64,000 nucleotides of DNA from Thalassospira sp. Its GTDB lineage: Bacteria; Pseudomonadota; Alphaproteobacteria; Rhodospirillales; Thalassospiraceae. The stretch spans positions 62,001 to 126,000 of the forward strand of contig NZ_JAUYHK010000011.1 in NCBI RefSeq assembly GCF_030690045.1. The letters run 5' to 3'. Position 1 is the stretch's first letter; the number at the start of each line of letters is the position of its first letter. Shown one piece after another: positions 1-14,653 of the stretch. The position numbers and the translations under genes are program-made. The notes under the pieces are model-generated. The model was not told the DNA's origin. It did no database searches and saw only the letters and a list, made by a program, of their open reading frames with translations.

Positions 1-3000
1 CTTGATCTGCCGGAAATTCACATCGTCAATCCGGGCGATGGCAGGATATTTTCCTATCGCCTGGCGGCCAACGGGGCGGCTTTGGCCGATGGATCGGCGC
101 GGCTTGCGCTGGAACTTGATCCGCTGGATGGCGGGATTGATCATGTGTCGGCGCAAATGGATTATGACCCGGCCCGGCGCGATTTGAACATCAATCTTGC
201 CGGGCGTCTTGACCGTGCCGGGGTGGTGATGACACTGGCCGGGATGGCACCCGAAGATGCGCCCGATATTACCATCTCCCTGATTGGCGATGGCCCGGCG
301 GATCAATGGCAGGGGCAGCTTGATTTTACCGCCAGCGATCTGGCAAGCCTGTCCGGGCGGCTTGGCGTGCAGGCCACAGCCCCCGATATCGGGTTTGATT
401 TTACCGGGATTGCGGCGACCGGAGGTCGTCTGGCGCAGCAAGTACCGCCGGAAATTCAGGGGGATATCGATCTTGCGATTGCCGGGTCCTATGGGATGGA
501 CGACAGTCAACTTGCGATATCTAAATTTGATATCATCAAGGCCGGGTTGCTGAATCTTTCGGCGCAGGCCGGAATTGATTTTGACCGCGAAACCATAGAT
601 GCGCGTCTTGATGCGATGCTTGATCCGGCGGCAAGTGCGTTGCTGGACGGAAATGTTGCGTGGCAGGCCGCCAATCTGTCGGCGCAGGCCAGCGGGCCGT
701 TGGCGGCCCCGGATGTCACCGCCAGCCTGACCGCCCAAAACCTGAGTACCCCGGTTTCGGAAATTGCGCAGCTTGACCTTGCCGCCACGATGAAGGCGGT
801 TGGGGCGCGATTCATGATTGATGCCGGGGGCACGACGACGGGCCATGTATGGCAGGATGATGGTTTGGGTGCGATGTTGGGCGATCATCAAAACATCACC
901 CTGCAAATCGATCTGGCAGGCGATGGCGGTGATATTCAAATTCCGTCTGTGATGATCAGCGCACCGGGCATGACCGTAACCGGGCAGGCCGCCCTTGATG
1001 ATGCGGGCAATGTGACGCAGGGCAATATCGTTGCCGATGCCACCGATCTGGCAATTTTTTCGGCGATTTCCGGGCTTGATCTGAGCGGGCAGGGCCGGGT
1101 CGGCATTGAGGATATTGTCTGGAACGCAGATGATGGTGGTGCGGCGAAACTGGCGATTACCGCGCAAGAGGCCGGTTTTGGTCTTGCCGATCTGGACCGG
1201 GTGATCGGACCGCAGCCGGTGATTGGCGGGCAGGTAAACATATCGCCGCAATTTGATCTGGAAATCGATTTTGACCGCATTGGTCTGGCGGCAGTTGATG
1301 GGGGTGGATCGGTCAGTATTTCAAATAATTTCAGTGATTTGTTGGCAAATATTAATCTGGAACTTGCGCCATCCATCATCCCGCCGGGGATCGGGGTGAC
1401 GGCATCGCAACCCGCCCAATTGAATGCCGCCATCGCCGGGCCGATGGCGGTCCCGGCGGGGCAAATCAAACTGACACTGCCGCGCCTTGATGTCAGTGGC
1501 GAGGATTTCCGGCGCATCAGCCTGACCACGGATATGACATGGTCGGATGCCGGGGTTTTGCGGCTTGATCACCGTGCCGGGTTTACCCTGCGCGATCAGC
1601 CTTATACGGCACGCGCCACGGTTTCGCTGCCCGATGACGGGGTGAGGGTATCGGCGATTGGATTGACGGGCGAGGGGATTGGCATCCGCGGTGACATTGC
1701 CCTGCCCGATTACAGCGCACCTTTAAGCGGTCGCATCGTGGTGGATTATCTGGATGCCGGGATGCTGGCAGCATGGGGCGGGCCGTTTGAGGCCGGGACG
1801 ATAACGGGCGATATCGGTTTTGTCCCCGACCAGACCCGCCAGACGGTGACACTTGCCGCCGATGCCGCCGGATTGCGATTGGCGATGGCCGAAGGGGACG
1901 AAACGCCGGGCCGGATTGAAAAGATCGCCCTGTCGGGCGAGGTGCGCGATGCCTTTGACAATCCTGCGCTGGCGCTGCGTCTGAACGGATCGGAGATTGT
2001 TGTTGCGCCGGTTCGGATTGATACGGTTGGCGTGACCCTTGACGGGGCCTTGTCCGAACTGGTGGTGACGGCGCAATTGGCGGGCAAGGTGCAGGATGAT
2101 ATTGCCCTGCGGCTTGACAGTGCGGCGGTGGTCGGCCTTGGGGATGACATACAGGTGCGGCTGGACCGGTTTGATGCGGGTGTGGGGGCGCAAAAGATCG
2201 CATTGCGTGAACCGGCCCTGTTTCGCCAGACCGCACAGGGGGCACAGGAAGCCTCATTGGCCCTTGCCGTTGGTTCGGGGCAGATTGATGCGCAATTGCG
2301 CCATAGCCCGTTGCAACAATTTACGGCATCTTTGGATATTGCCGGGCTGGCCCTTGGTCCGTGGGGAGAGATGTTTGATATCAAGGGGATGGATGGCAAT
2401 CTTGATCTGAATGGTGATGTATCGGAACAGGCCGGGCAAATGGCCGAAGCCCGGATGGAGGGGCGGATTTCCGATATTCGCATCAATGCCGCCGGGAATT
2501 TGCCGCCGTTGGAACTGGTGCTGAACAGCACATTGGCAAATGGGCGGGTAGAAACGGCATTGTCGCTGGGGCGGCCTGATCTGGATGTTTTGACGGCATC
2601 AGGCAGCCTGCCGGTGGCCTTTTCGGCCCTGCGCGGCGAATTTGCGCCGGTGCGCGATGCGCCATTGAGCCTTGATGCCGATATTGATGGTCAGATCGAG
2701 GATTTTTGGCCCTATGTGCCTTTGCCCGATCATGCCTTGTCGGGGCGCATCCTGCTTGATTTTTCAGCGCAGGGGACATTGGCACAACCCGACTGGAACG
2801 GTATTTTGCGTCTTGAGGACGGACGGTATGAACATTTGCAATATGGCACCCTTTTGGCCGCCATCAATCTGGATGGTCGGTTTGATGATCGCGGATTGAT
2901 CATTCCGTCGATCACGGCGACCGATGGCGGCAAGGGGACGATTTCGGGCAAGGCCGCAGTTCGGCTGGATGATGATCCGGCCCTGTCTTATGAGGCGGAA

Positions 3001-3936
3001 CTGACGATGCGCAATGCGGCGATGGCGCGGATGGATGAAGTCAAAATCTGGACCGATATGGATATGGCGGTAACGGGCGATGATACCAGGGCCGATATTA
3101 CCGGGCAGATTACCTTGCAGCGTGGTGAAATTGATTTGAATGTCGCGTTACCGGCATCGGTATCGCAGCTTGAGATCGATAATCTGCAACAGGGGACCGA
3201 AGCAGAAGATGCAAAGGACGCCCCGAATGCCTTTGCCAGTGTGCTGGATGTGCGGGTATCGATTCCGGGGCGGTTGTTTGTGCGCGGCAAGGGGCTTGAG
3301 TCCGAATGGGGCGGTAATCTGGCAATCAGCGGCGCGGCCGATGATCCGGTTATTGTCGGGGAATTGCGCGCCTTGCGCGGGCAACTGGATGTGATCGGCA
3401 AGACCTTTGTGATCCGGGATTCCACCATCACTTTTTCGGGGGCGCAACCGCCCGACCCGTTGCTCGATATTGCCGGGGTTTACAGCACCGATGACCTGAT
3501 CGTGACGGCGGCGTTTAAGGGACCGGCAAGTGACCCGGAACTGGTTCTGACATCCGAGCCATCCTTGCCACAGGATGAAATCCTGTCGCGGGTGCTGTTT
3601 GGCAAATCGCAAGGCAGTCTGTCGGCGATTGAAGCGGTGCAGCTTGCCAGTGCGGCATCGGAATTGTCGGGCGGCGGCGGGGGTCTGGATGTGGTGGGAT
3701 CGATCCGGAAATTTGTCGGTGTTGATGTCTTGCAGGTGGGCGGCAGCGATAGTGGCGCGAATGTCCGTGTCGGGCAATATCTGGCCGACGGGGTTTATGT
3801 TGGCACCAAACAGGGCACCACGCCGGGTTCCAGCGGGGTCGAGGTGGAAATTGAACTGACCCCGAATATCAAGGTCACCAGCGAAACCGGTGCCGCCGAT
3901 ACCAAGGCGGGGATTCAGTTCAAGCTGGATTATTAA
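1..3936 (+). CDS. tamB: Translocation and assembly module subunit TamB, 5' truncated by window edge
   Basis: The reading frame is open from base 1, so the gene starts outside the window; 1,311 residues are visible. TamB is a very long inner-membrane-anchored periplasmic protein that pairs with TamA or BamA in outer-membrane protein and lipid traffic. Nearly the whole visible part is the repetitive, Asp/Gly-rich amphipathic beta-strand sequence typical of the family. The last roughly 350 residues form the TamB C-terminal (DUF490) domain, with the characteristic stretch DEILSRVLFGKSQGSLSAIE followed by a glycine tract and an aromatic C-terminus (FKLDY). The N-terminal anchor is not seen. The stop overlaps the convergent kinase gene by 4 bases. 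The TTG at 82 is internal, not the start. Confidence 0.9.
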   Translation, partial: LDLPEIHIVNPGDGRIFSYRLAANGAALADGSARLALELDPLDGGIDHVSAQMDYDPARRDLNINLAGRLDRAGVVMTLAGMAPEDAPDITISLIGDGPADQWQGQLDFTASDLASLSGRLGVQATAPDIGFDFTGIAATGGRLAQQVPPEIQGDIDLAIAGSYGMDDSQLAISKFDIIKAGLLNLSAQAGIDFDRETIDARLDAMLDPAASALLDGNVAWQAANLSAQASGPLAAPDVTASLTAQNLSTPVSEIAQLDLAATMKAVGARFMIDAGGTTTGHVWQDDGLGAMLGDHQNITLQIDLAGDGGDIQIPSVMISAPGMTVTGQAALDDAGNVTQGNIVADATDLAIFSAISGLDLSGQGRVGIEDIVWNADDGGAAKLAITAQEAGFGLADLDRVIGPQPVIGGQVNISPQFDLEIDFDRIGLAAVDGGGSVSISNNFSDLLANINLELAPSIIPPGIGVTASQPAQLNAAIAGPMAVPAGQIKLTLPRLDVSGEDFRRISLTTDMTWSDAGVLRLDHRAGFTLRDQPYTARATVSLPDDGVRVSAIGLTGEGIGIRGDIALPDYSAPLSGRIVVDYLDAGMLAAWGGPFEAGTITGDIGFVPDQTRQTVTLAADAAGLRLAMAEGDETPGRIEKIALSGEVRDAFDNPALALRLNGSEIVVAPVRIDTVGVTLDGALSELVVTAQLAGKVQDDIALRLDSAAVVGLGDDIQVRLDRFDAGVGAQKIALREPALFRQTAQGAQEASLALAVGSGQIDAQLRHSPLQQFTASLDIAGLALGPWGEMFDIKGMDGNLDLNGDVSEQAGQMAEARMEGRISDIRINAAGNLPPLELVLNSTLANGRVETALSLGRPDLDVLTASGSLPVAFSALRGEFAPVRDAPLSLDADIDGQIEDFWPYVPLPDHALSGRILLDFSAQGTLAQPDWNGILRLEDGRYEHLQYGTLLAAINLDGRFDDRGLIIPSITATDGGKGTISGKAAVRLDDDPALSYEAELTMRNAAMARMDEVKIWTDMDMAVTGDDTRADITGQITLQRGEIDLNVALPASVSQLEIDNLQQGTEAEDAKDAPNAFASVLDVRVSIPGRLFVRGKGLESEWGGNLAISGAADDPVIVGELRALRGQLDVIGKTFVIRDSTITFSGAQPPDPLLDIAGVYSTDDLIVTAAFKGPASDPELVLTSEPSLPQDEILSRVLFGKSQGSLSAIEAVQLASAASELSGGGGGLDVVGSIRKFVGVDVLQVGGSDSGANVRVGQYLADGVYVGTKQGTTPGSSGVEVEIELTPNIKVTSETGAADTKAGIQFKLDY

Positions 3937-4904
3937 ACAGCAAGGTCAAGGTCACTGATATCGACCAGCGCACCATGCCGGGTGATGACCCGACCGGCGA
4001 CTTTTTGTGCAATCATGATGGCATCATCAATGCGGTGCCCCGATTGCCGGGCGGCAAGGAAGGACCCGTTAAAGGAATCGCCCGCCGATGTGGTATCGAC
4101 AATGTGCGGAACTTTGGGCGGGGTGAGGGTGCCGGTTGCGCCTGAACTGTCAAGATACAGGGTGGCGTCGCCACCATTCTTGACGATGATTTCAGATGCG
4201 CCCCAGTCCTGCCAGCGTCGTGCCGTATCTTGCGGGGTCGGGTCGCCAAACAGCACATGTTCATCGTCAAAGGTCGGCAGGACATTATCGCACAGGGCCG
4301 CGAATTTCTGATAGCAGGCACGGGCGGAATCCGCATCATTCCACAGGCGCGGGCGATGATTGCTGTCAAAGCCGATGCGGCCCCCGGCGGATTTGACATC
4401 CTGCAAGATGCCAAACAATGTATCGCGATCCGCAGCAGGCAGGATTGCCAGCGAAATTCCCGACAGATAAACCAGATCACACTGCGCCAGCCCGTCGCGC
4501 AATACGGCATCGCCGCCATTGGTGATCAGATTGCGGGCGGCGGCATTATTGCGCCAATAGTGAAAGCTGCGTTCGCCGTGTGTGTCGGTCTGGATCGCAT
4601 AAAGGCCGGGCAATTGACCGGGCAGGCGGCGCACCAGACCGGTATGCAGGCCGTCGCGTTGCCAGCCTGCGATCATGGCGTCGCTATAGGAATCGTCGCC
4701 AAGGGCGGTGACATAGGCAATATCAAGGGGGGCATTGCCCAAAAGCCGGGCGGTGCGTGCCATATAAATTGCTGCATTCAGCGTATCGCCCGCATAGCCA
4801 AGAGTGCACGGGCCAAACGGGCCGTGTCCGGACCCTTGTGATGCGCCGGGTGACGCGCCGGAAATTTCGATCATACATTCGCCAATGCAGGCAATTCTGG
4901 TCAT
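3933..4904 (-). CDS. kdgK: PfkB-family sugar kinase, probably 2-keto-3-deoxygluconate kinase
   Basis: This 323-residue ribokinase/PfkB-family protein begins MTRIACIGECMIE, an opening typical of KDG kinases. It carries the PfkB C-terminal signature VDTTSAGDSFNG, with the catalytic base Asp in AGDSFN. KDG kinase phosphorylates 2-keto-3-deoxygluconate to KDPG, the entry to the lower Entner-Doudoroff branch. The start at 4904 is preferred over the ATG seven codons upstream because a GAGG ribosome-binding site lies 8 bases before it. It sits 24 bases downstream of an RpiR/HexR-type regulator gene on the same strand, which fits co-transcription and sugar-acid control. The exact substrate is inferred from sequence feel, so another PfkB sugar specificity remains possible. 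Confidence 0.78.
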   Translation of the reverse strand: MTRIACIGECMIEISGASPGASQGSGHGPFGPCTLGYAGDTLNAAIYMARTARLLGNAPLDIAYVTALGDDSYSDAMIAGWQRDGLHTGLVRRLPGQLPGLYAIQTDTHGERSFHYWRNNAAARNLITNGGDAVLRDGLAQCDLVYLSGISLAILPAADRDTLFGILQDVKSAGGRIGFDSNHRPRLWNDADSARACYQKFAALCDNVLPTFDDEHVLFGDPTPQDTARRWQDWGASEIIVKNGGDATLYLDSSGATGTLTPPKVPHIVDTTSAGDSFNGSFLAARQSGHRIDDAIMIAQKVAGRVITRHGALVDISDLDLAV

Positions 4905-4928
4905 TCGGGAACCTCGTTCAATCAATAT

Positions 4929-5813
4929 TCAGTCGCCGATCGGCTGACGCGAAACCGGGGGATACAGGGTGAGCAACGAAGACCGGATTCGCCGCAGTTT
5001 TTCCTTGCTTTTGGTCGGGGTGCGGCGGGCAACCGCCGTTGCGATGATATCAATGGTGGCCAGAAAGACATGGCGGGTGGCGGTGGGTTTGTATACATCG
5101 GGATTTTCGGGCATATCAAGCCCGATGACAATATCGCTTTCCTGTGCCAGCGGGCTGTCGGGCTTGGTCAGGGAAATGACGGTTGCCCCATATTGCCGGG
5201 CGATTGCCGCACTGTGGATCAGTTCGGTCGGCAGGCCGCTGGTGGAAATGGCAAACAGCACGTCTTCCTCGCCCAGTGTCGAGGCCAGCATGCGTTGCAA
5301 ATAACCGTCACTTTGCGCCTGTACCGGAATACCCAGCCGGAAAAACCGGTGGGCGGCATCCAGCGCGACGGTGGTGGAACCGCCCCCCACCCCGAAAAAT
5401 ACCACCTGCCGGGCCCGCGACAGGGCATCGGCGGCGGCGGTGATTTTATCTTGCGGCAATTGTTCGCGCAAGGTGCGCAGATTATCGATGATGACGCCCA
5501 GAACATGGTTGGTCAGGACATCGGCATCGGTGGTGTCGTCGGATAAATCCTCGGTCCCCAGATATTGCATGCTGACCGCAAGGTTCTGGGCCAGCCTGAT
5601 CTTGAAATCGCGAAAACCGTCACAGCCAAGGGTGCGGCAAAACCGGATGACGGTGGGTTCGCTGACGCCAACCTTTTGTGCCAGTTCCGACAGCGCAATG
5701 GTCGTCACATCCTGAAGATGATTCTGGATGTAATCGGCCACTTTTTGTTCGCGGGCCGGAAAGGACCCGGAATGGCGGCTGATCTGGCTGATAATATCTG
5801 TGGCTGGTTGCAT
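4929..5813 (-). CDS. RpiR/HexR-family transcriptional regulator (HTH + SIS)
   Basis: This is a 294-residue protein with an N-terminal RpiR helix-turn-helix (about residues 1-80; SEPTVIRFCRTLGCDGFRDF is diagnostic) and a C-terminal SIS sugar-phosphate-binding domain (about residues 125-260, FFGVGGGSTTVALDAAHRFF). The overall pattern resembles HexR, the phosphosugar-responsive repressor of hexose and Entner-Doudoroff genes. It is followed by the KDG-kinase-like gene and preceded by ridA, from which it is separated by an intrinsic terminator. Three tandem palindromes of HexR-like architecture between ridA and the TRAP genes are its most likely binding sites. The effector cannot be told from sequence. 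Confidence 0.85.
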   Translation of the reverse strand: MQPATDIISQISRHSGSFPAREQKVADYIQNHLQDVTTIALSELAQKVGVSEPTVIRFCRTLGCDGFRDFKIRLAQNLAVSMQYLGTEDLSDDTTDADVLTNHVLGVIIDNLRTLREQLPQDKITAAADALSRARQVVFFGVGGGSTTVALDAAHRFFRLGIPVQAQSDGYLQRMLASTLGEEDVLFAISTSGLPTELIHSAAIARQYGATVISLTKPDSPLAQESDIVIGLDMPENPDVYKPTATRHVFLATIDIIATAVARRTPTKSKEKLRRIRSSLLTLYPPVSRQPIGD

Positions 5814-5835
5814 CAGGATATCCCGAAACTGCGCA

Positions 5836-5877
5836 GAAAAAGGGCGGGGTGCCCGGCGACGTCACCCGACACCCCGC
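5836..5877 (-). terminator. Intrinsic terminator of ridA
   Basis: Read on the minus strand, an 8-bp perfect stem (GCGGGGTG / CACCCCGC, 5844-5851 with 5870-5877) has an 18-base loop and is followed by CC and a run of five T. It lies between the ridA stop and the rpiR start, so ridA mRNA probably ends here and the regulator depends on its own promoter or on read-through. Confidence 0.7.
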
Positions 5878-5886
5878 TGACAAATA

Positions 5887-6276
5887 TCATTTTTCCGGTT
5901 TGTAGGCGATAACTTCGATTTCAATTTTGGCATCCACCATCATTTGCGACTGTACGGTGGAGCGTGCCGGGCGTTCATTGGGGAAATATTCGGCATAGAC
6001 GCGGTTGAATGTCCAGAAATCCCGCGTGTCGGCCAGCCAGACATTGACCTTGAACACATCTTCAAGGGTGCAATTGGCAAGGGCGAGGGTGGCTTTGACA
6101 TTTTCCATTGTCCGTTTGGTCTGGGATTCGATGCCACCCGGTTCGATTTCGCCATTTTCCTTCATCGCGACCTGGCCTGAAATATAGACATAATCACCGG
6201 CGCGTACCGCCGGGGTAAAGGGCAGTTTCTGGCCGCCAGCACCGCTGCGTTCATTGCCAAAATATTGAATTGTCAT
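5887..6276 (-). CDS. RidA family enamine/imine deaminase
   Basis: This 129-residue RidA (YjgF/YER057c/UK114) protein accelerates hydrolysis of reactive enamine/imine intermediates from PLP enzymes and amine oxidases to ketoacids and ammonia. The conserved substrate-binding Arg sits in NERPARSTVQ, and the following acidic segment KIEIEVIAYK matches the family end. The start at 6276 is chosen because GGGAG lies at good distance; an upstream ATG at 6309 has no such site. It is divergent from the TRAP transporter operon, and the shared 204-base promoter region contains three palindromes, so it is probably controlled together with the uptake system. Confidence 0.88.
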   Translation of the reverse strand: MTIQYFGNERSGAGGQKLPFTPAVRAGDYVYISGQVAMKENGEIEPGGIESQTKRTMENVKATLALANCTLEDVFKVNVWLADTRDFWTFNRVYAEYFPNERPARSTVQSQMMVDAKIEIEVIAYKPEK

Positions 6277-6330
6277 GGAAATCTCCCTGTCAGACATTGT
6301 GGGTTGCACCTGAAAACAGGCTGCGTGATA

Positions 6331-6447
6331 GGTAGCTAAGCTACTTATTTTGCGATAATTTAACCATTATATAGCGTAAAGTGCCAAATTATGTCAAAAA
6401 AATGTAGACAAACTACAAAATGCTCCTCAGGATGTAGAAAAATTACA
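6331..6447. promoter_or_regulatory. Three tandem RpiR/HexR-like operator palindromes in the ridA / TRAP divergent promoter
   Basis: Three 15-base dyads share the form xGTAG-N5-YTACx: GGTAG-CTAAG-CTACT (6331-6345), TGTAG-ACAAA-CTACA (6403-6417) and TGTAG-AAAAA-TTACA (6433-6447). The last two start exactly 30 bases apart. The surrounding region is AT-rich, unlike the flanking coding DNA, and lies between ridA (start 6276) and dctQ (start 6481). The pattern resembles the TGTAAT-N-ATTACA boxes known for HexR. The neighbouring RpiR/HexR-type regulator is the natural candidate to bind here. Sequence pattern is direct; regulator assignment is inference. Confidence 0.65.
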
Positions 6448-6480
6448 TAACAACGGCATTCAGCGGAGAGATATCTGGCG

Positions 6481-7002
6481 ATGGTATTTTATGGCCTTGA
6501 AAATGTGGCCGGGCGGCTGAGCAAGGGGCTGAACTGGGCCGTCGAGCGCGTGGTGGCCTGTTTGATGCTGCTTTTGGTCGTCGATGTCTGGATCGGCGTG
6601 ATGGATCGCTATCTTTTTCACTGGCAATTGCCGTGGCCCGAGGAACTGGCGCGGTATCTGATGATCTGGGCGGCTCTTTTGGCGGTATCGGCGGGGATTG
6701 CCCGGCGCGAACATATCGGCATTGGCATGGTTGTCCTGAATTTGCCGATGATCTTGCAGCGCCCGATCCTGATTGCGATGGATCTGATTGCGCTCAGTGC
6801 CTTTGCCTATCTGGCGATTTACGGGTTTGATTTTGCAGCGGGCGGCATGCGCCGTCAGGCGATGATTTTCGGCATGAGCCTTGCCCTGCCTTATGCCGCC
6901 GTACCGGTTTCAGCCAGCCTTGCCGCAATTCAATTATTGCTGGTGGCGTTGCGCGATCAGGGCCGGTTCGTGCCCATCGATATTACGGAGGGTGCGGAAT
7001 GA
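6481..7002 (+). CDS. dctQ: TRAP transporter small permease (DctQ type)
   Basis: This 173-residue integral membrane protein has four hydrophobic segments, the usual size and topology of the DctQ small subunit of tripartite ATP-independent periplasmic transporters. The motif WPEELARYLMIWAALL is a strong DctQ hallmark. A GGAGAG ribosome-binding site precedes the ATG. Its end overlaps the large permease gene by 4 bases (ATGA), so the two are translationally coupled. With DctM and DctP it forms a secondary, sodium-driven uptake system. The substrate is not identifiable from this subunit. Confidence 0.92.
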   Translation: MVFYGLENVAGRLSKGLNWAVERVVACLMLLLVVDVWIGVMDRYLFHWQLPWPEELARYLMIWAALLAVSAGIARREHIGIGMVVLNLPMILQRPILIAMDLIALSAFAYLAIYGFDFAAGGMRRQAMIFGMSLALPYAAVPVSASLAAIQLLLVALRDQGRFVPIDITEGAE

Positions 7003-8279
7003 TCGTCGCGATTCTTTTTGTCGTTCTGATGGTTCTGGGCATGCCGATTGGCTTTGCCCTTGGCGTTGCGGGGATTGCCGGTCTGTTTGACATGGGCGGC
7101 GGCATGTTTCTCGCACAGGGACCCAGCAAGATTTTCAACGGGTTGAATGTGTTTCCGTTTCTGGCCATGCCGTTTTTCATTCTGGCAGGCGAGATCATGA
7201 ACCATATCGGCATTACCAGCCGTCTGGTGTTGTTTGCCCAGGCGCTGGTCGGGCATTTTCGCGGCGGGCTTGCCCATACCAATATGCTGGCGTCGGTGTT
7301 TTTTGCCGGACTGACCGGGGCGGCGACCGCCGATGCGGCGGCCTTTGGCAAAACCCTTGTGCCTGCCATGGTCGAACGCGGATATCGGCGCGATTATGCC
7401 TGTGCGGTGACGGCCGCCGGATCGATCATCGGCCCGACCATTCCGCCATCCGGTTTGATGGTGGTGTATGGATCGCTGATGGGGGTATCGATTGGCGGAT
7501 TGTTTGCGGCAGGTATTTTGCCCGGCCTGATGATTTGCCTGATCTGCATGACGGTGATTGCGGTGACGGCGCGGTCGAAAAACCTGCCCAAGGAAGAACG
7601 CCGGGCGTCGCTTTTGCAAATCTGGGCGATTTTCAAATCCTCGATTTCGGCCCTGATCATGCCGATCATTATTCTGGGCGGCATTCTGGGCGGGATTGTC
7701 ACCCCGACCGAGGCGGCGGCGGTGGCGGTGGGTTATGCGCTGTTTATCGGGGTGTTTATCTATCGTGCCCTGACGGTGAAGGCTTTTATCGGCATGCTGA
7801 TCCGCACCGCCCGGGTGACAGGGGTGATTTTCATCATCATCGCCTTTGCCTCGATCATGGGCTGGTGGCTGAGCTTTAACCGCATTCCGCAGGAAGTGGC
7901 GGAAATGGTGCTGAGCCTGTCGGACAACCGTTACATGATCATTCTGATGATTGTTGCGCTGTTGCTGGCGATTGGCATGGTGATGGATATCAACGCCATC
8001 CTGATCATTCTGGCCCCGGTTCTGGTGCCGTTGACCGTTCAGATCGGCATGGACCCGATCCATGCCGGGATCATCTTTGTGCTGGCGCTCAATATTTCAT
8101 TGATGACGCCGCCGGTCGGGGCCTGTCTGTTTGTTCTGTCTTCGGTGACCGGCGAGAAACTTGAGAAAATTGCGGCCCAACTGTGGCCGTTCCTGATCGC
8201 CGAACTTGCCATTCTGTTTGTTTTTGCCTTCTGGGCCGATCTGGCCTTGCTGATCCCGCGATTGTTGGGATTTCGGTGA
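6999..8279 (+). CDS. dctM: TRAP transporter large permease (DctM type)
   Basis: This 426-residue polytopic membrane protein, with about a dozen hydrophobic segments, has the DctM signature features: an N-terminal GMPIGFALGVAG segment, the ANMLASVFFAGLTGAATADAA-type helical-hairpin region and AAGSIIGPTIPPSGLMVVYG. It is the transport-catalysing subunit that exchanges substrate and sodium after delivery by the binding protein. It overlaps dctQ by 4 bases and is followed by a 102-base gap with a hairpin before the binding-protein gene. Confidence 0.93.
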   Translation: MIVAILFVVLMVLGMPIGFALGVAGIAGLFDMGGGMFLAQGPSKIFNGLNVFPFLAMPFFILAGEIMNHIGITSRLVLFAQALVGHFRGGLAHTNMLASVFFAGLTGAATADAAAFGKTLVPAMVERGYRRDYACAVTAAGSIIGPTIPPSGLMVVYGSLMGVSIGGLFAAGILPGLMICLICMTVIAVTARSKNLPKEERRASLLQIWAIFKSSISALIMPIIILGGILGGIVTPTEAAAVAVGYALFIGVFIYRALTVKAFIGMLIRTARVTGVIFIIIAFASIMGWWLSFNRIPQEVAEMVLSLSDNRYMIILMIVALLLAIGMVMDINAILIILAPVLVPLTVQIGMDPIHAGIIFVLALNISLMTPPVGACLFVLSSVTGEKLEKIAAQLWPFLIAELAILFVFAFWADLALLIPRLLGFR

Positions 8280-8299
8280 GGGCGGTCGCCTGTGATTTC

Positions 8300-8322
8300 C
8301 CCTGATCTGGTCCGGATCAGGG
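8300..8322 (+). other. Intercistronic hairpin between dctM and dctP
   Basis: A perfect 8-bp stem, CCCTGATC (8300-8307) with GATCAGGG (8315-8322), encloses a 7-base loop. There is no T-run, so it is not a classical terminator. Its position just before the binding-protein ribosome-binding site suggests an mRNA processing or stabilising element that raises dctP expression above the permeases. This is inference. Confidence 0.45.
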
Positions 8323-8381
8323 CGCTGGGCAACGGCGCAATATCGGATCGTAACAACAATGACGCATCAAGGAGAGGTGTT

Positions 8382-9437
8382 ATGAACACATTTAAACGTT
8401 TGGGGGCCGCCGCATTGGCGACTGCCCTTCTGGCGACCACGGCAACCGGGGCCTATGCCGACGGCAAGGTTCTGAAATTTGCCCATGACAACAAGACCGA
8501 CCCGTTTGAAAACCCGGCCCATGCCTGTACCGCCGTTTTTGCCAATATTGTCGAAGCTGACACCAATGGCGCGATCAAGGTTGAAGTTTACCCGTCCAAT
8601 CAGTTGGGATCGGCTGCCGAACATGTGCAGATGGTGCGCGATGGTTTGATCCAGGGCACCCTGACATCGACCGGGGCGATTGCATCCTATTATCCGCGGA
8701 TCGATGTCCTGAATCTGGCCTTTGCCTTTGACAGTAACGCATCGACCTATGACGTGTTTGATGGTCCGTTTGGCCAGGCCTTGGCCGAAGATGTCGAAAA
8801 GACGCTGGGCGATGTTGTGGTTCTGGGTTTCCCCGATACCGGCGGATTTTTTGCCGTGACCAATTCAAAACGGCCGATTGCGACACTGGAAGATTTCAAG
8901 GGTATCCGCATTCGCACCATGGCGCTGCCCGCCCATCAGAAAATCATGCAGGCGATGGGAGCAGAAGCCTATCCGATGGCATGGGGCGAAGTGTATGCCG
9001 GGCTTCAGACCGGTGTGATCGACGGTCAGATGAACCCGGTGCCAACAGTGACTTTTTCAAAATTTGACGAAGTGCAGCCCTATCTGACCCTGACCAACCA
9101 TCTGTTTTCGCCTTACACCATGATGCTGTCCAAAAGTTTTTGGGATGAGCTGACCCCCGATGAACAGAAAATCGTGCGCTATGCCGCGAAATCCTGTGTG
9201 GTTGCCAGCCGTGGTTTGTCGCGGGTGATCGAGGCATCGGACCGCGGGCTTAAAGGCCTGACCGGCAAGATGGAAATCACCGCCCTGTCGGCAGAAGACC
9301 GCGAAGAATTCAAAAAGGCAACCCAGCCGGTTGTCATCAACCATGTTACCGAAACGCTGGGCGCGGAAGGCGTGGCACTTCTCGAACTGTTCCAGCAGGA
9401 AGTCGATAAGGCCAACACCAGCCGCTACATGGAATAA
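8382..9437 (+). CDS. dctP: TRAP transporter substrate-binding protein (DctP family)
   Basis: This 351-residue periplasmic binding protein has a clear signal peptide (MNTFKRLGAAALATALLATT, cleavage after AYA) and DctP-type mature sequence: LKFAHDNKTDPFENPAHA, the NQLGSAAEHVQMVRDG region and IRIRTMALPAHQKIMQAMGA. The start at 8382 has an AGGAGAGG ribosome-binding site; a GTG further upstream (8292) would place 30 unlikely residues before the signal peptide. Ligand class (acid, amino acid or other) cannot be assigned with confidence. A strong terminator follows. Confidence 0.9.
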   Translation: MNTFKRLGAAALATALLATTATGAYADGKVLKFAHDNKTDPFENPAHACTAVFANIVEADTNGAIKVEVYPSNQLGSAAEHVQMVRDGLIQGTLTSTGAIASYYPRIDVLNLAFAFDSNASTYDVFDGPFGQALAEDVEKTLGDVVVLGFPDTGGFFAVTNSKRPIATLEDFKGIRIRTMALPAHQKIMQAMGAEAYPMAWGEVYAGLQTGVIDGQMNPVPTVTFSKFDEVQPYLTLTNHLFSPYTMMLSKSFWDELTPDEQKIVRYAAKSCVVASRGLSRVIEASDRGLKGLTGKMEITALSAEDREEFKKATQPVVINHVTETLGAEGVALLELFQQEVDKANTSRYME

Positions 9438-9446
9438 TCCACGTAA

Positions 9447-9484
9447 GGGAGGATGGTGCAATCATCCTCCCGCTTTTTTCTTTT
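9447..9484 (+). terminator. Strong intrinsic terminator after dctP
   Basis: A 9-bp perfect stem (GGGAGGATG / CATCCTCCC, 9447-9455 with 9463-9471) with a 7-base loop is followed by GC and T-runs (TTTTTTCTTTT). It separates TRAP genes from the metabolic genes that follow, so the latter are either expressed by read-through or from a promoter in 9485-9526. Confidence 0.85.
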
Positions 9485-9526
9485 GCCGATAATCATGACA
9501 AAAACAAAGAACAAAAGGATGGGATC

Positions 9527-10996
9527 ATGAGGATTTTCTGTGCTTCGATTGCGACCGAAACCAATACATTTTCGCCGCTGCGGACTGATTTTTCAGATTT
9601 TACCGAAAGTTTTTATGCGCCCCCCGGCCAACATCCGGCCACCCCGACCCTGTGCAGCGCCATTTTTCCGGTCGCCCGCCGCCGTGCGAGCGCCGAAGGA
9701 TGGGATTTGATCGAGGGCACGGCGACATGGGCCGAGCCGGGCGGGCTGGTCAGCCGCGCCACATATGAACAATTGCGCGACGAGGTTTTGGGGCAATTGC
9801 GCGATGCCCTGCCGGTGGATGGGGTGATGCTGGGCCTGCACGGGGCGATGGTGGCGCAAGGATATCTGGATTGCGAGGGGGATTTGCTGACCCATGTGCG
9901 GGCAATTGTCGGGCCGGATGTGGTGATCGGGGCCAGTTTCGATCCGCACAGCCATTTAAGTGCCGCCCGGATTGACAATGCCGATATCATCGTCGCCTTT
10001 AAGGAATTTCCGCATACCGATTTTGTCGATGCGGGCGAGGCGGTGGTTGATCTGGTGCTGCGGACCCTGCGCGGCGAGATTGTGCCGGTCAAGGCGGTGT
10101 TTGATTGCCGGATGATTGAAGTGTTGCCGACATCGCGCGAACCGATGCGGTCCTTTATAGACCGTGCCCGTGCGATGGAGGGGCAGGGCGATATTTTGTC
10201 GATATCCTTCATTCATGGTTTCATGGCCGGGGATGTGCCCGATCTGGGCACCAAGGCGGTGGTAATTACCAACAACAACCCGGTACTGGCACAGGAAACG
10301 GCGCAGCGGCTGGGGCTTGAACTGTTCGGGTTTCGGGGCACGACGCGGCCCGATTTCCTGCAAACAGATGTCGCGCTTGACCGGGCCGTTGCCGCCAATA
10401 CGGCCCCGGTGGTGATTACCGATGTCTGGGACAATCCCGGCGGCGGGGTGCCGGGGGATTCGACCCTGTTACTGCGTGCCGTGATGGATCGCGGATTGCG
10501 CGATTATGCCTTTGGCACGATCTGGGACCCGATGGCGGTGCGCACCTGTTTTTCGGCGGGGGAAGGGGCGGTTTTGCCCTTGCGCTTTGGGGCCAAGACA
10601 TCGGCACATGGCGGCGCGCCGGTGGATGCCGAGGTGGTGGTGAAAAAATTGCGTCGGGATTCCTGGCAAAGTTTTGGTGACAGCATCGTGCCGCTGGGCG
10701 ATTGTGCCCTGATTGAATTGCCCGATGGTGGCGAGGTGATCCTCAATTCCAACCGGGCGCAAAGTTTCGAGCCGGACCTGTTTTCCAATATGGGGGTTGA
10801 CCCGGCAGCAAAAAAATACCTGTTTATCAAATCGACCAATCACTTCTACGATGCCTTTGCACGGATTGCCGGGGAAATCATTTATGTCGATGTTCACGGC
10901 CCCTATCCATCGGACCCGAAAACCAATGATTACCGTCATCTGAGCCGCCCGATCTGGCCGATTGTCGATGATCCTTTTGCCATTGCCGAGACCTGA
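9527..10996 (+). CDS. M81 family metallopeptidase (MlrC-like)
   Basis: This 489-residue protein of the M81/MlrC family, named for the microcystinase MlrC, opens with RIFCASIATETNTFSP. Probable zinc ligands are visible as D139 and H141 in FDPHSHLSA and H163 in FPHTDFVDAG. Family members are metal-dependent amidases or peptidases, usually of unproven substrate, and are frequently encoded beside uptake systems, as here. It lies 2 bases before the PLP-enzyme gene, suggesting one transcript. A role in opening an amide bond of the TRAP-imported compound is inference. Confidence 0.85.
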   Translation: MRIFCASIATETNTFSPLRTDFSDFTESFYAPPGQHPATPTLCSAIFPVARRRASAEGWDLIEGTATWAEPGGLVSRATYEQLRDEVLGQLRDALPVDGVMLGLHGAMVAQGYLDCEGDLLTHVRAIVGPDVVIGASFDPHSHLSAARIDNADIIVAFKEFPHTDFVDAGEAVVDLVLRTLRGEIVPVKAVFDCRMIEVLPTSREPMRSFIDRARAMEGQGDILSISFIHGFMAGDVPDLGTKAVVITNNNPVLAQETAQRLGLELFGFRGTTRPDFLQTDVALDRAVAANTAPVVITDVWDNPGGGVPGDSTLLLRAVMDRGLRDYAFGTIWDPMAVRTCFSAGEGAVLPLRFGAKTSAHGGAPVDAEVVVKKLRRDSWQSFGDSIVPLGDCALIELPDGGEVILNSNRAQSFEPDLFSNMGVDPAAKKYLFIKSTNHFYDAFARIAGEIIYVDVHGPYPSDPKTNDYRHLSRPIWPIVDDPFAIAET

Positions 10997-10998
10997 AA

Positions 10999-12063
10999 AT
11001 GACCGATTTCCCCGATCTTGATACCCCCTGTGCCGTCATTGACCTTGATTGTGTCGATCGCAATATCCGGAAATATCAGGATTATTGCGACTTGCACGGC
11101 ATCGGGTTGCGTCCGCATATCAAGACGCACAAAATCCCCGATTTCGCCCGTCAGCAAATGGCCGTCGGGGCGACGGGGATTACCTGCCAGAAAATCGGCG
11201 AGGCCGAAGTTATGGCCGATGCCGGAATCCGGGATATTCTGATTACCTATAATATTCTGGGGGTGCGCAAGCTGGCCCGGTTGCGCAAACTTGCGGATCG
11301 TCTGACCCGCTTGCAGGTGGTGGCGGACAATGAAACGGTGATCAGCGGTCTTGCCAATGCCTTTGCCGGGGCGGACAGGCCACTGGAAGTTCTGGTGGAA
11401 TGTGATACCGGCGGCGGGCGGTGCGGTGTGCAAAGCCCGGATGATGCCGTGGCGCTGGCCAAAATGGTTGATGCGGCGCCGGGTCTGATTTTTATGGGAT
11501 TGATGACCTATCCGGCGGCCGGTGGCACGCAGAAGGTCGAGGCGTTTTTTGAAACGGCGATGGCCGGGTGCCGGGATGCCGGAATCGAATGCCCGGTGCG
11601 CAGTTCCGGCGGGACGCCTGATATGTGGCAGGCCCATTTGTCGCCCCTGACCACGGAATATCGCATCGGGACCTATATCTATAATGACCGGTCCCTGATG
11701 GCGCGGGGGGTGTGTGGCGCAGAAGATTGCGCCTTGCAGGTTCTGTGCGAAATTGTATCGGTGCCAACCGCCGGTCGGGCGATTATCGATGCCGGGTCCA
11801 AGGTTCTGACATCGGATTTGCTGGGGCTTTCGGGCTATGGCTATGTGGTCGGGCATCCCGATGTTGCGGTATCGTCGCTCAGCGAGGAACACGGTATTCT
11901 GACCTATGATCCGGCGACGGTGCCCTTTGTTGTCGGGCAACGCATCCGGATCATTCCCAACCATGTTTGCGTGGTCAGCAATATGCTGGACGAAGTGCAT
12001 CTGACGCGGGGCGGGGTTCTGGAACGGACCGTGCCGGTGGCGGCACGTGGACGTGTAACCTGA
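10999..12063 (+). CDS. D-threonine aldolase / D-serine dehydratase-like PLP enzyme (alanine racemase-like barrel)
   Basis: This 354-residue fold-type III PLP enzyme has the Schiff-base Lys probably at K42 in RPHIKTHK. Near the C-terminus is the metal-binding motif PNHVCVV that defines the D-threonine aldolase / D-serine dehydratase (DSD1) group. Members cleave or dehydrate D-3-hydroxy amino acids. Its overlap-free junction, 2 bases after the M81 gene, indicates the two act on the same substrate flow. Aldolase versus dehydratase activity cannot be separated by eye. Confidence 0.83.
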   Translation: MTDFPDLDTPCAVIDLDCVDRNIRKYQDYCDLHGIGLRPHIKTHKIPDFARQQMAVGATGITCQKIGEAEVMADAGIRDILITYNILGVRKLARLRKLADRLTRLQVVADNETVISGLANAFAGADRPLEVLVECDTGGGRCGVQSPDDAVALAKMVDAAPGLIFMGLMTYPAAGGTQKVEAFFETAMAGCRDAGIECPVRSSGGTPDMWQAHLSPLTTEYRIGTYIYNDRSLMARGVCGAEDCALQVLCEIVSVPTAGRAIIDAGSKVLTSDLLGLSGYGYVVGHPDVAVSSLSEEHGILTYDPATVPFVVGQRIRIIPNHVCVVSNMLDEVHLTRGGVLERTVPVAARGRVT

Positions 12064-12555
12064 TCAGACGATGTGATGGGGCAGATAGCCGGTAAAACCG
12101 GTAATCAGCCATGTCCCGCCCGGCGTTTTTTCGCAGTAATAATGGGTTTTCCACAGCAGATGGTGCGATGTGCCGTCTGCTTTTTTGAGGGTGCCGTTGA
12201 AATGTTTGCGCACCAGCGCCCGGTTGCCGGAAATTTCGATGGTTTCAAGCTGTGTCGCCCGCATTACGGCATCAAACACATCTTCGGCCCATTTGATTTT
12301 GCGGCTTTCATGGGCCTGACGCAGCCATTCATCGCGATAGGCATCCAGATTTGGAAAAGCCATTTCCCAGTCATCAGGATTGGGGGATTTTTGTGCATCG
12401 ATTGCATAAAACCCGTCGGCCTTGAAATCATCGGCAATCTGGGACCAGTCGGCGGCGACAAAGGCCGCAATATCGCGCACCACCAGCATTTCCCAAATCT
12501 GGCAACGATCCAGGTCATCGGCGGTAAAGGGGCAGGAATAATCAGATTTTGTCAC
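12064..12555 (-). CDS. NTF2/SnoaL-like hypothetical protein
   Basis: This 163-residue soluble protein has no signal peptide. Its alternating aromatic pattern and terminal segment WLITGFTGYLPH suggest the cone-shaped NTF2-like (SnoaL) fold, which is used for small-molecule binding or lyase and isomerase reactions. No catalytic residues can be assigned confidently. It is convergent with the PLP-enzyme gene (directly abutting, 12063/12064) and is the only minus-strand gene inside the catabolic cluster, so its link to the pathway is uncertain. Confidence 0.6.
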   Translation of the reverse strand: MTKSDYSCPFTADDLDRCQIWEMLVVRDIAAFVAADWSQIADDFKADGFYAIDAQKSPNPDDWEMAFPNLDAYRDEWLRQAHESRKIKWAEDVFDAVMRATQLETIEISGNRALVRKHFNGTLKKADGTSHHLLWKTHYYCEKTPGGTWLITGFTGYLPHHIV

Positions 12556-12734: not shown

Positions 12735-13586
12735 ATGGGTTGGGGTGGTTTTACCGCAGCAGAACTGGAATGGCAGTATAATCCGCGCGAAACCGTCCCG
12801 GATTTTATGGAGGATTTTCAGCGGTTTGCGCAGCAATCCGACGTGGCCCGTGCGGCCCTGAATCATCAGCCTGATGTGCGGTTCGGCCCCGGCCCCAGAG
12901 AAACCATGGATATTTATCCGGCGGCAACGCCGGGTGCGCCGGTGCATGTGTTTTTTCATGGCGGTTATTGGCGCAGTCAGGACAAAAAGGATTATGCCTT
13001 TATCGCACCGGGGCTGGTATCGGCGGGGTTTACTGTCATTTGCGCCAATTATGATTTGTGCCCGGATGTTACGGTTGCCGATATTCACGAACAGGCGGTA
13101 CGGTGCGTCAAATATGTGTTTGAAAATGTTGCCGATTTTAAAGGCGACCGCGACCAGATCAGCCTGTCGGGCCATTCGGCGGGCGGGCAGATTGTCGCGC
13201 GCCTTGCCAGTCATGACTGGCACGCGGAACTGGGCGATACGCGGCCCTTTAATACCGTGGTGCCGGTATCTGGGGTGTTTGATCTGGAACCCATCCGTTT
13301 TACCAGCCTGAATGACGATATCCGTCTGGATGAACAGATGGCGGCGGAATGTTCGCCGATGCTGGATGCTGCGCCGGTTGAACCCCGCATGATGTTGGTG
13401 GTCGGGGCCAATGAAAGCCCGGAATTTGTCCGCCAGAGCGAGGCCTATGCCGCCTATTGCCGTCGCGCCGGGGTTTCTGTGCCGGTGATCAAGGCATGGG
13501 GTGCCAACCATTTTACCGTGCTGGAAGAACTTTATGTACAGGGCGGGGCGCAGTTTGGCGAATTCAAGCGGTTTCTGAAAAGTTGA
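12735..13586 (+). CDS. Alpha/beta hydrolase of the arylformamidase (HGGYW) type
   Basis: This 283-residue alpha/beta hydrolase has the oxyanion motif HGGYW (residues 75-79) and the nucleophile elbow GHSAGG (Ser148); the C-terminal GANHFTVLEEL supplies the catalytic His. HGGYW is characteristic of kynurenine formamidase (BNA7-like) and related esterases that cleave formyl or acyl amides. No kynureninase or tryptophan dioxygenase gene is near, so a role in the TRAP-linked cluster on another acylated amine is as likely as kynurenine metabolism. Confidence 0.8.
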   Translation: MGWGGFTAAELEWQYNPRETVPDFMEDFQRFAQQSDVARAALNHQPDVRFGPGPRETMDIYPAATPGAPVHVFFHGGYWRSQDKKDYAFIAPGLVSAGFTVICANYDLCPDVTVADIHEQAVRCVKYVFENVADFKGDRDQISLSGHSAGGQIVARLASHDWHAELGDTRPFNTVVPVSGVFDLEPIRFTSLNDDIRLDEQMAAECSPMLDAAPVEPRMMLVVGANESPEFVRQSEAYAAYCRRAGVSVPVIKAWGANHFTVLEELYVQGGAQFGEFKRFLKS

Positions 13587-13711
13587 GGCGCAAGAACGGC
13601 TGTAAAATCCGGTTATTTTGGTGGTTCATCCTGTGACGGTTCGGGGCAATTCATGCTATAAGAATATCTGCGTTAGAGATTGAATTTCCACGAAAAACAG
13701 CAGGTATTGCG

Positions 13712-14653
13712 ATGCGTTTTGTAACCGCCGAAGATATTGACCGTTCCGTCCCGCCGCGTGCCATGGTCGAGGCTCTGCGCACATGGTTTGCCAAAGGGTG
13801 TGAAACCCCGCTGCGCAGCCATTTCAACATGGAACGATCCGGTGAAGACGACGCCACCTTGCTGATCATGCCGTCATGGGAAAAGGACGGGGCGGCCGGG
13901 GTCAAGGTTGCCGCCGTGGTGCCGGGCAATGCGGCGCGCAATCTTCCGGCGGTATCGGGGATTTACATTTTGCTGGACGGGGTGACCGGGCAACCGTCTG
14001 CGGTTCTGGATGGCACGCGCCTGACGACGCGGCGCACGGCGGCGGCATCGGCTCTTGCCGCCGATTATCTGGCACGCAAGGATGCCAGCCATCTGGTGAT
14101 GGTCGGGTCGGGGGCGTTGGCCCCCAATCTGATTGCGGCCCATGCGTCGGTGCGACCGATCAAAAAAGTCACGATCTGGAACCGCAATGCGGCCAAGGCG
14201 CAGGCCCTTGCGGCGGAAACCGCGCGGCTTGGCTTTGACGCGGTTGGCACGGATGATCTGGAAAGTGCCTGCAAGACGGCGGATATCATTTCATGTGCGA
14301 CGCTTAGCACCGAACCGTTGGTGCGCGGGGCGTGGTTGCGGGCCGGAACGCATGTGGATCTGGTCGGGGCGTTCAAGCCGACCATGCGCGAAACCGATGA
14401 TGATGTGATGCGCAAATGCCGGATTTTCGTTGACAGTTTTGAAGGGGCGAGTGCGGAGGGCGGCGATATTGTCCAACCGATCAAGGCCGGTGTGATTGCC
14501 AAGGAAGATATTCTGGGTGATTTGTTTGGTCTGACCCGGGGGATGGTGACAGGCCGTCAATCCGACGATGAATGCACGGTGTTTAAATCGGTCGGACATG
14601 CGCTGGAAGATTTTGCGGCGGCGGTTACGGTCGTCGGGGCATTGTATCAATGA
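13712..14653 (+). CDS. Ornithine cyclodeaminase / mu-crystallin family protein
   Basis: This 313-residue protein has the family layout: an N-terminal substrate-binding part with RSHFNMERSG and LLIMPSW, and a central Rossmann segment GSGALAPNLIAAHA (about residues 131-144) for NAD(P). Members act as ornithine cyclodeaminase, ketimine or pyrroline-2-carboxylate reductase, or alanine dehydrogenase. It overlaps the thioesterase gene by 4 bases (ATGA), so the two are coupled. In this setting imine reduction or amino-acid deamination is plausible; the specific activity is not decidable from sequence. Confidence 0.85.
   Translation: MRFVTAEDIDRSVPPRAMVEALRTWFAKGCETPLRSHFNMERSGEDDATLLIMPSWEKDGAAGVKVAAVVPGNAARNLPAVSGIYILLDGVTGQPSAVLDGTRLTTRRTAAASALAADYLARKDASHLVMVGSGALAPNLIAAHASVRPIKKVTIWNRNAAKAQALAAETARLGFDAVGTDDLESACKTADIISCATLSTEPLVRGAWLRAGTHVDLVGAFKPTMRETDDDVMRKCRIFVDSFEGASAEGGDIVQPIKAGVIAKEDILGDLFGLTRGMVTGRQSDDECTVFKSVGHALEDFAAAVTVVGALYQ

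Follow-up and report, generated by a model that had tools for sequence, protein, structure and literature searches.

Three 15-bp palindromes in the divergent spacer between ridA and the TRAP permease gene dctQ are, with a probability that we put at roughly 0.9, the operators of the RpiR-family protein encoded next to them at 4929-5813. We regard these boxes as candidate operators based on their genome-wide rarity, their conservation, their co-occurrence with the regulator and the existence of a characterised relative, RccR, that binds boxes of this kind. The window, i.e. the whole stretch of DNA that was analysed (64 kb), contains the following features:

3933..4925, minus strand: pfkB sugar kinase; 2-dehydro-3-deoxygluconokinase is its top-scoring NCBIfam model, at 314 bits against a cut-off of 400
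4929..5813, minus strand: RpiR-family regulator (HTH_6 and SIS domains), the proposed binder; from NCBIfam, Pfam, structure model and clade
5887..6276, minus strand: RidA family protein; from NCBIfam and Pfam
6277..6480, no strand: divergent ridA/dctQ spacer, 204 bp, containing sites 1, 2 and 3
6331..6345, no strand: site 1, GGTAGCTAAGCTACT, ridA-proximal operator candidate
6403..6417, no strand: site 2, TGTAGACAAACTACA, operator candidate
6433..6447, no strand: site 3, TGTAGAAAAATTACA, operator candidate, starting 30 bp after the start of site 2
6481..7002, plus strand: TRAP small permease DctQ; from NCBIfam and Pfam
6999..8279, plus strand: TRAP large permease DctM; aligns with annotated TRAP large permease genes in loci L190, L192 and L193
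8382..9437, plus strand: TRAP solute-binding protein DctP; from NCBIfam and Pfam
9527..10996, plus strand: M81 metallohydrolase (MlrC-like); from NCBIfam and Pfam
10999..12063, plus strand: fold-type III PLP enzyme of the D-threonine aldolase / D-serine dehydratase family (D-TA); from NCBIfam and Pfam
12064..12555, minus strand: small protein, part of the module; nine genomes lack it at the locus, along with kinase, ridA and D-TA
12735-14653, next after the small protein in position: alpha/beta hydrolase and OCD-family genes

Before the pfkB kinase, in order of position, lies a long open frame (82-3936) that we take to be TamB-like. The small protein showed no Pfam or NCBIfam match; a homologue of it occurs in a Peteryoungia module.

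All three palindromes of the preliminary description were found where it had placed them, and the starts of sites 2 and 3 are exactly 30 bases apart. Sites 2 and 3 lie less than 80 bp from the dctQ start and site 1 about 150 bp upstream of it; both end bases of site 1 differ from the TGTAG...CTACA form (G and T versus T and A). Across the window, GTAG-N5-YTAC occurs at three places, all within the ridA/dctQ spacer, and its five strand matches compare with a mean of 0.18 and a maximum of 3 in 100 dinucleotide shuffles. A genome-wide scan, as the preliminary description had proposed, returned KGTAG-N5-YTACW at four places, three of which are sites 1-3 in the spacer and the fourth G000:C4:33992. 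The 4.23 Mb genome holds the strict form TGTAR-N5-YTACA three times, twice within the spacer. The third, again C4:33992 (about 5993-6007 of L085), is located between ECF-sigma-like and oxidase-like genes, as judged by eye from the ORFs, and was taken as chance because its sequence does not recur among the sites of the remaining 28 genomes. When one mismatch is tolerated, the strict form gives two window places versus 1.18 expected, a number reached by 40 of 100 shuffles. Since this relaxed count is ordinary, the strength of the motif lies in its exactness, clustering and conservation.

Next, we compared the spacers of the 28 Thalassospira genomes with rpiR, including the window; one of them (G022, locus L015) was dropped for a run of N across sites 1 and 2, leaving 27. 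The regulator has an ortholog in 27 of the 28 congeners (74-83% identity), and the best RpiR match across 31 genomes of the order that belong to other families reached an E-value of 1.9e-19 at 29% identity. Site 1 keeps GTAG-N5-CTAC, site 2 reads TGTAGACAA[A/G]CTACA and site 3 keeps TGTA-N7-TACA, each in 27/27 readable spacers; the count for site 3 includes five gapped forms taken from the spacer alignment, and its strict YTACA half is found in 19/27. Mean majority identity was 0.94 over the 45 site columns versus 0.677 over the 95 other columns of 6331-6470, and only 1 in 20,000 random triples of 15-bp windows was equally conserved. At the level of whole genomes, TGTAG-N5-YTACA is present in 28 of the 29 genus genomes. 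A further 17 strict places, scattered over 13/29 genomes (G000 included), have one sequence that is common to three genomes. Given this scatter, and with the third strict site of the window's own genome, the one whose context was inspected, taken as chance, we rejected a wider regulon.

The sole genome of the genus without TGTAG-N5-YTACA, G006, is also the one without regulator and module. Searching this genome, we found neither an rpiR ortholog nor an M81 match; its best DctM match is 42% identical, and its six RpiR-family matches are weak. At the locus itself, the alpha/beta hydrolase and OCD genes follow within about 220 bp after the TamB-like gene, and kinase, rpiR, module ridA, TRAP, M81, D-TA and small gene were not found there. 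A RidA relative (32%) lies some kilobases from the locus, as in several congeners. Because hydrolase and OCD genes adjoin the TamB-like gene in G006, the regulated module likely spans about 3933-12555 and excludes them (12735-14653). A regulon of the catabolic island, as initially proposed, therefore stands as one divergent promoter region for this module, and loses the hydrolase and OCD genes, which are present where the module is absent. Five congeners (G011, G020, G023, G026, G027) have about 5 kb between the module and the alpha/beta hydrolase; the one stretch scanned (G011, L080 3547-6886) contains branched-chain amino-acid-type ABC genes (Peripla_BP_6, BPD_transp_2).

Within the genus, the module itself varies at the locus of the 27 other congeners. 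Full modules with kinase, ridA and D-TA were found in 13, in five ridA is degraded or gone beside an intact pair of kinase and D-TA genes, and nine keep rpiR, TRAP and M81 at a locus without kinase, ridA, D-TA and small gene. The box cores persist in all readable loci, irrespective of whether the module is full, ridA-decayed or kinase-less. As site 1 is kept in 8/8 readable genomes from the group of nine without ridA, it is not simply a ridA operator, and a purely ridA-directed role is unsupported. In the five congeners with decayed or lost ridA (G025, G016, G010, G028 and G005, loci L002-L006), the gene is present as fragments in four and undetected in one. The nine ridA-less congeners (e.g. 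L011, L013, L020) still have about 480 bp (300 bp extra) between rpiR and dctQ; no long open frame was seen in this gap in the three examined.

In order to assess conservation outside the genus, we started from the best 80 of 350 loci and scanned 59 non-Thalassospira ones (L112-L171 without L156). In 27 of these 59, dctQ is faced by the gene of an RpiR relative that is at least 44% identical. The strict box is present in 24/27 of these spacers, compared to a shuffle expectation of 0.03/27, and 30 strict boxes fall in 5,653 bp of spacers versus none in 332,986 bp elsewhere in the same loci. Absence of the motif from orthologous clusters had been named beforehand as grounds against the assignment; together with the 27/27 genus spacers, these counts show the opposite. 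The 27 spacers are not 27 independent cases, since many loci are closely related (e.g. six Ruegeria-type loci with one identical box). The three misses are L115 and L119, which depart by one or two bases, and L151 (TGTAACTAAGGTACA).

The strict R/Y pattern does not hold as a universal rule: it fails in all three plasmid TRAP clusters (Paracoccus, Phaeobacter, Ponticoccus), where the boxes are TGTAAC-N3-GGTACA-like. We replaced it by the TGTA-N7-TACA core, which was chosen after these clusters were seen and occurs twice in two of them and one base off in the third. With the 27 loci and the three plasmid clusters combined, the core is present in 27/30 rpiR-TRAP spacers; it occurs 36 times in 6,142 bp of spacers versus twice in 383,464 bp elsewhere. 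The other spacings (N4, N5, N6, N8, N9, N10) were found in 0/30.

Beyond facing spacers, 14 clade loci in which dctQ was not seen facing rpiR gave a strict box in five, a near match in three and none in six within the stretch examined, some contigs being short; the six loci without a box count against the regulator as the binder. The strict box was present near the gene in 2 of 18 gammaproteobacterial RccR-like loci (L157, L161). Four further plasmid loci (L191, L194, L195, L196) showed no strict box, and L191 has one near match beside rpiR. Three ORFs picked upstream of ridA in L131, in search of the transporter of that locus, gave no Pfam match. In L126 (151-5377), from a sister clade, an Opp/Dpp-type ABC transporter occupies the TRAP position, i.e. 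a transporter swap under a related regulator. The RpiR proteins of L151 (Enemella, a record labelled Actinomycetota) and L193 (Ponticoccus) are nearly identical (end branches 0 and 0.03), so that the Enemella contig may be a contaminant. We therefore rejected it as proof of spread to Actinomycetota; L151 is still counted among the 27.

The preliminary description had likened the box to HexR boxes; it matches instead the 15-bp RccR box of Pseudomonas, TGTAGT-N3-ACTACA (PMC5489143). At aceE, RccR binds two such sequences, TGTAGTAAAACTACA and TGTAGTTTTACTACT, which are separated by 68 bp, and KDPG lowers its affinity (PMC5489143). The first of these strings, TGTAGTAAAACTACA, is also found at the Maritalea loci L116, L117, L120 and L124. 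As a yardstick for HexR boxes, we scanned the E. coli zwf-yebK region, which gave a one-mismatch match only, with 54 of 200 shuffles as good. Between clades, box and recognition helix vary in parallel: EPTVI proteins mostly go with GTAGT or GTAAT, VATVN proteins mostly with GTAAG (one chosen site from each of seven loci) and KPTVV proteins with GTAAC, and for the TPTV helix the inner bases are mixed (GTAAC, GTACC and others). This joint change of helix and inner box bases is what a protein-operator pair would show, the comparison comprising few clades and few independent changes that are confounded with ancestry.

Regarding the regulator itself, PF01418 (HTH_6, N-terminal, 81.2 bits) and PF01380 (SIS, C-terminal, 61.0 bits) both score above their cut-offs, which places the protein in the RpiR (MurR/RpiR) family. 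Its highest NCBIfam score is to HexR (PRK11302), at 228.5 bits versus a cut-off of 296. Linkage to zwf, edd, eda or glk, as expected for HexR, was not found; the neighbours are kinase, ridA, TRAP, M81 and D-TA, and the one strict motif place of the genome outside the spacer is next to an ECF-sigma-like gene. In a tree of 53 proteins, the island regulators cluster together (100/100), separately from the RccR-like group. As two long branches, those of HexR and of the island, come together in this tree, we rely on the island clade and not on the rooting. In a second tree, of 32 proteins, the island clade is joined by the Vibrio L194 and Cupriavidus L196 regulators and, on a long branch, by that of Peteryoungia L195 (100/99). 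Judged by the curated cut-off, the separate clade and the changed KDPG pocket positions, the window protein is not a HexR. Of the initial proposal that the neighbouring RpiR/HexR-type regulator binds the boxes, the RpiR gene is thus supported, by the motif in orthologous spacers and its absence together with the regulator in G006, and the HexR label is dropped. The window regulator is OngR-like by its grouping with regulators of ong-type clusters, a link made through L194 and not through the published OngR sequence. Its AlphaFold model (mean pLDDT 85.3, pTM 0.64) is nearest to RccR (8ju9 and 8k3b, TM-scores 0.63-0.67), followed by NanR and MurR; the whole-chain rmsd of 12 versus RccR probably reflects domain placement.

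Next, we mapped the KDPG contacts of RccR (S139, H148, R152, H164, S183, S185, S188 and K270, plus R277; PMC10810197) onto the window protein by alignment. Eight contacts could be compared, the ninth (RccR R277) being outside the aligned stretch. At positions 146, 155, 159, 171, 190, 192, 195 and 277 the window protein reads S-H-R-Y-S-S-P-R versus S-H-R-H-S-S-S-K in RccR, and so does not show the full RccR contact set. Three phosphate-side serines and R152 are kept (RccR S139, R152, S183 and S185 as S146, R159, S190 and S192), and H164, S188 and K270 are replaced by Y171, P195 and R277. Clade-wide, the position of RccR 164 holds Y, or Q in two proteins, that of 188 holds P or A and that of 270 holds R, with mostly N at the second contact. 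The clade also has a P[I/L/V]GD C-terminus; the L194 and L196 proteins share this tail, and neither E. coli HexR nor the RccR-like proteins of gammaproteobacteria have it. Since the phosphate-side serines are kept and other pocket positions changed, we infer an effector that is a phosphorylated acid-type compound and need not be KDPG. KDPG itself, made by the neighbouring kinase and sensed as in RccR, is a possible but rather doubtful effector: the kinase resembles a KDG kinase and the four kept residues would suit such a ligand, whereas the three replaced contacts argue against it, as do the nine congeners without the kinase gene at the locus, which keep the regulator and, where readable, the boxes.

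For the divergent promoter region we infer binding, repression, cooperative filling and an inducer as follows. Each TGTA-N7-TACA box would be occupied by one dimer through its pair of HTH_6 domains. With a distance of 30 bp or about three helical turns, boxes 2 and 3 would be filled together on one DNA face upstream of the TRAP genes, with box 1 serving the ridA-rpiR-kinase side. The protein is proposed to repress both divergent units (ridA-rpiR-kinase and TRAP-M81-D-TA), including its own gene, until a phosphorylated sugar-acid-type intermediate from the module binds in the SIS domain and releases it. We searched 6260-6500 for a sigma-70-like promoter and for promoter hexamers under the boxes and found none. 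As no promoter was recognised, the sense of regulation follows from analogy with RccR and OngR; given the assignment of the protein to the boxes, this analogy makes repression quite likely.

The same boxes could instead serve an activator or dual regulator, which we consider unlikely. RpiR-family activators do exist, such as GlaR of Lactococcus (PMC6528599) and NanR of Streptococcus (PMC12713135), and the persistence of site 1, well upstream of dctQ, where ridA is lost would fit such a role. However, RccR (PMC5489143, PMC10810197) and OngR (PMC9537276) are described as repressors, and the position of boxes 2 and 3 close to the dctQ start also speaks for repression.

It is very improbable that the real binder is HexR or another RpiR paralogue, with the boxes belonging to a central-carbon regulon. 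None of the genome's protein matches reaches the HexR cut-off (PRK11302, 296 bits), neither the genome nor the genus showed a second conserved site, and G006 keeps other RpiR-family matches yet has no TGTAG-N5-YTACA. The TGTAG half-site is common to RccR-type boxes, and the recognition helix SEPTV-RFCR is common to the window protein and E. coli HexR, which would suit a paralogue; the Pseudomonas HexR consensus, however, is given as TTGT-N7-8-ACAA (PMC5489143). Finally, RNA or supercoiling features, or chance palindromes in a visibly A+T-rich spacer with ordinary one-mismatch counts, are scarcely credible and chance was rejected, given arms that are invariant across the genus against diverged flanks and an N7 spacing fixed in 27/30 spacers outside it with six other spacings at zero.

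With the RpiR protein as the binder of the three boxes, an anonymous spacer becomes a testable regulon, comprising one regulator, one box (TGTA-N7-TACA) and one module in many marine and other alphaproteobacteria. The regulator is of an ordinary kind and newly assigned; none of the titles listed from the open-licence PMC literature describes this RpiR/TRAP/M81/RidA regulon. Because its inducer should be a pathway product, it offers a handle on the role of M81 (MlrC-like) hydrolases and of this TRAP transporter in the sea. Moreover, the OngR group is extended beyond ong clusters, and the clades with differing helices and inner box bases represent a natural set for studying DNA specificity in the RpiR family.

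Comparing these results to known systems, HexR resembles the window regulator in family, in recognition helix and as the model of its highest NCBIfam score. It differs in that the window protein stays below the cut-off, has neighbours other than zwf/edd and branches separately in the trees; the targets of HexR are central carbon genes (PMC5343134), and the window regulator would control a local module. RccR is closer, being the best sequence and fold relative in the PDB (8k3b), with two boxes at aceE and autoregulation (PMC5489143) and with three of four phosphate-binding serines kept in the window protein. In contrast to the window regulator, it controls aceEF, glyoxylate-shunt and gluconeogenesis genes (PMC5489143); its pocket differs at positions 164, 188 and 270, and the window protein falls in a separate clade.

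A close counterpart of the module as a whole is the ong cluster of Pseudoalteromonas, which serves the catabolism of the oxidised chitin sugar GlcNAc1A and encodes the MurR/RpiR repressor OngR along with OngC, a fold-III PLP deaminase, the RidA protein OngD and the KDG kinase KdgK; OngR represses part of the ong genes (PMC9537276). OngC deaminates glucosaminate to KDG and also accepts D-serine and D-threonine, ong clusters of Vibrio carry an extra aldolase gene, and the available part of the source gives no OngR operator (PMC9537276). The window module likewise combines RpiR, D-TA, RidA and KDG-kinase-like families, so that all three enzyme families are present as assigned from sequence. It differs in having a TRAP transporter in place of the symporter and an M81 hydrolase in place of the deacetylase; neither an OngB-type amidohydrolase (Amidohydro_3) nor an SSS symporter was found among the 10 window proteins scanned.

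The link between both systems runs through Vibrio L194. Of its 21 ORFs, the eight scanned include a row of genes for KDPG aldolase, pfkB kinase, sodium:solute symporter, RidA, amidohydrolase, D-TA and RpiR, with a chemotaxis-receptor gene after rpiR, which is the layout described for ong clusters (PMC9537276). Its regulator groups with the island clade (100/99) and has the common P[I/L]GD C-terminus. The D-TA proteins of window and L194, by comparison, are only 29% identical over 166 residues, and a TGTA-type box was not found near the L194 regulator. A related module on a Peteryoungia plasmid (L195, 786-9480) combines two M81 genes and a GH20 glycoside hydrolase with D-TA, RidA and a distant RpiR, a gene content pointing to amino-sugar substrates.

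Taken together, the module looks like a TRAP-fed relative of the ong pathway (D-TA deaminase, RidA and KDG kinase) with an M81 hydrolase. More tentatively, the island may be an alphaproteobacterial counterpart of ong, in which M81 would deacylate and TRAP (an Opp-type ABC transporter in a sister locus) would take up an oxidised amino-sugar or D-hydroxy-amino-acid derivative, with the OngR-sister regulator sensing a non-KDPG phosphorylated keto-acid via its remodelled SIS pocket (Y171, P195, R277 and the PIGD tail).
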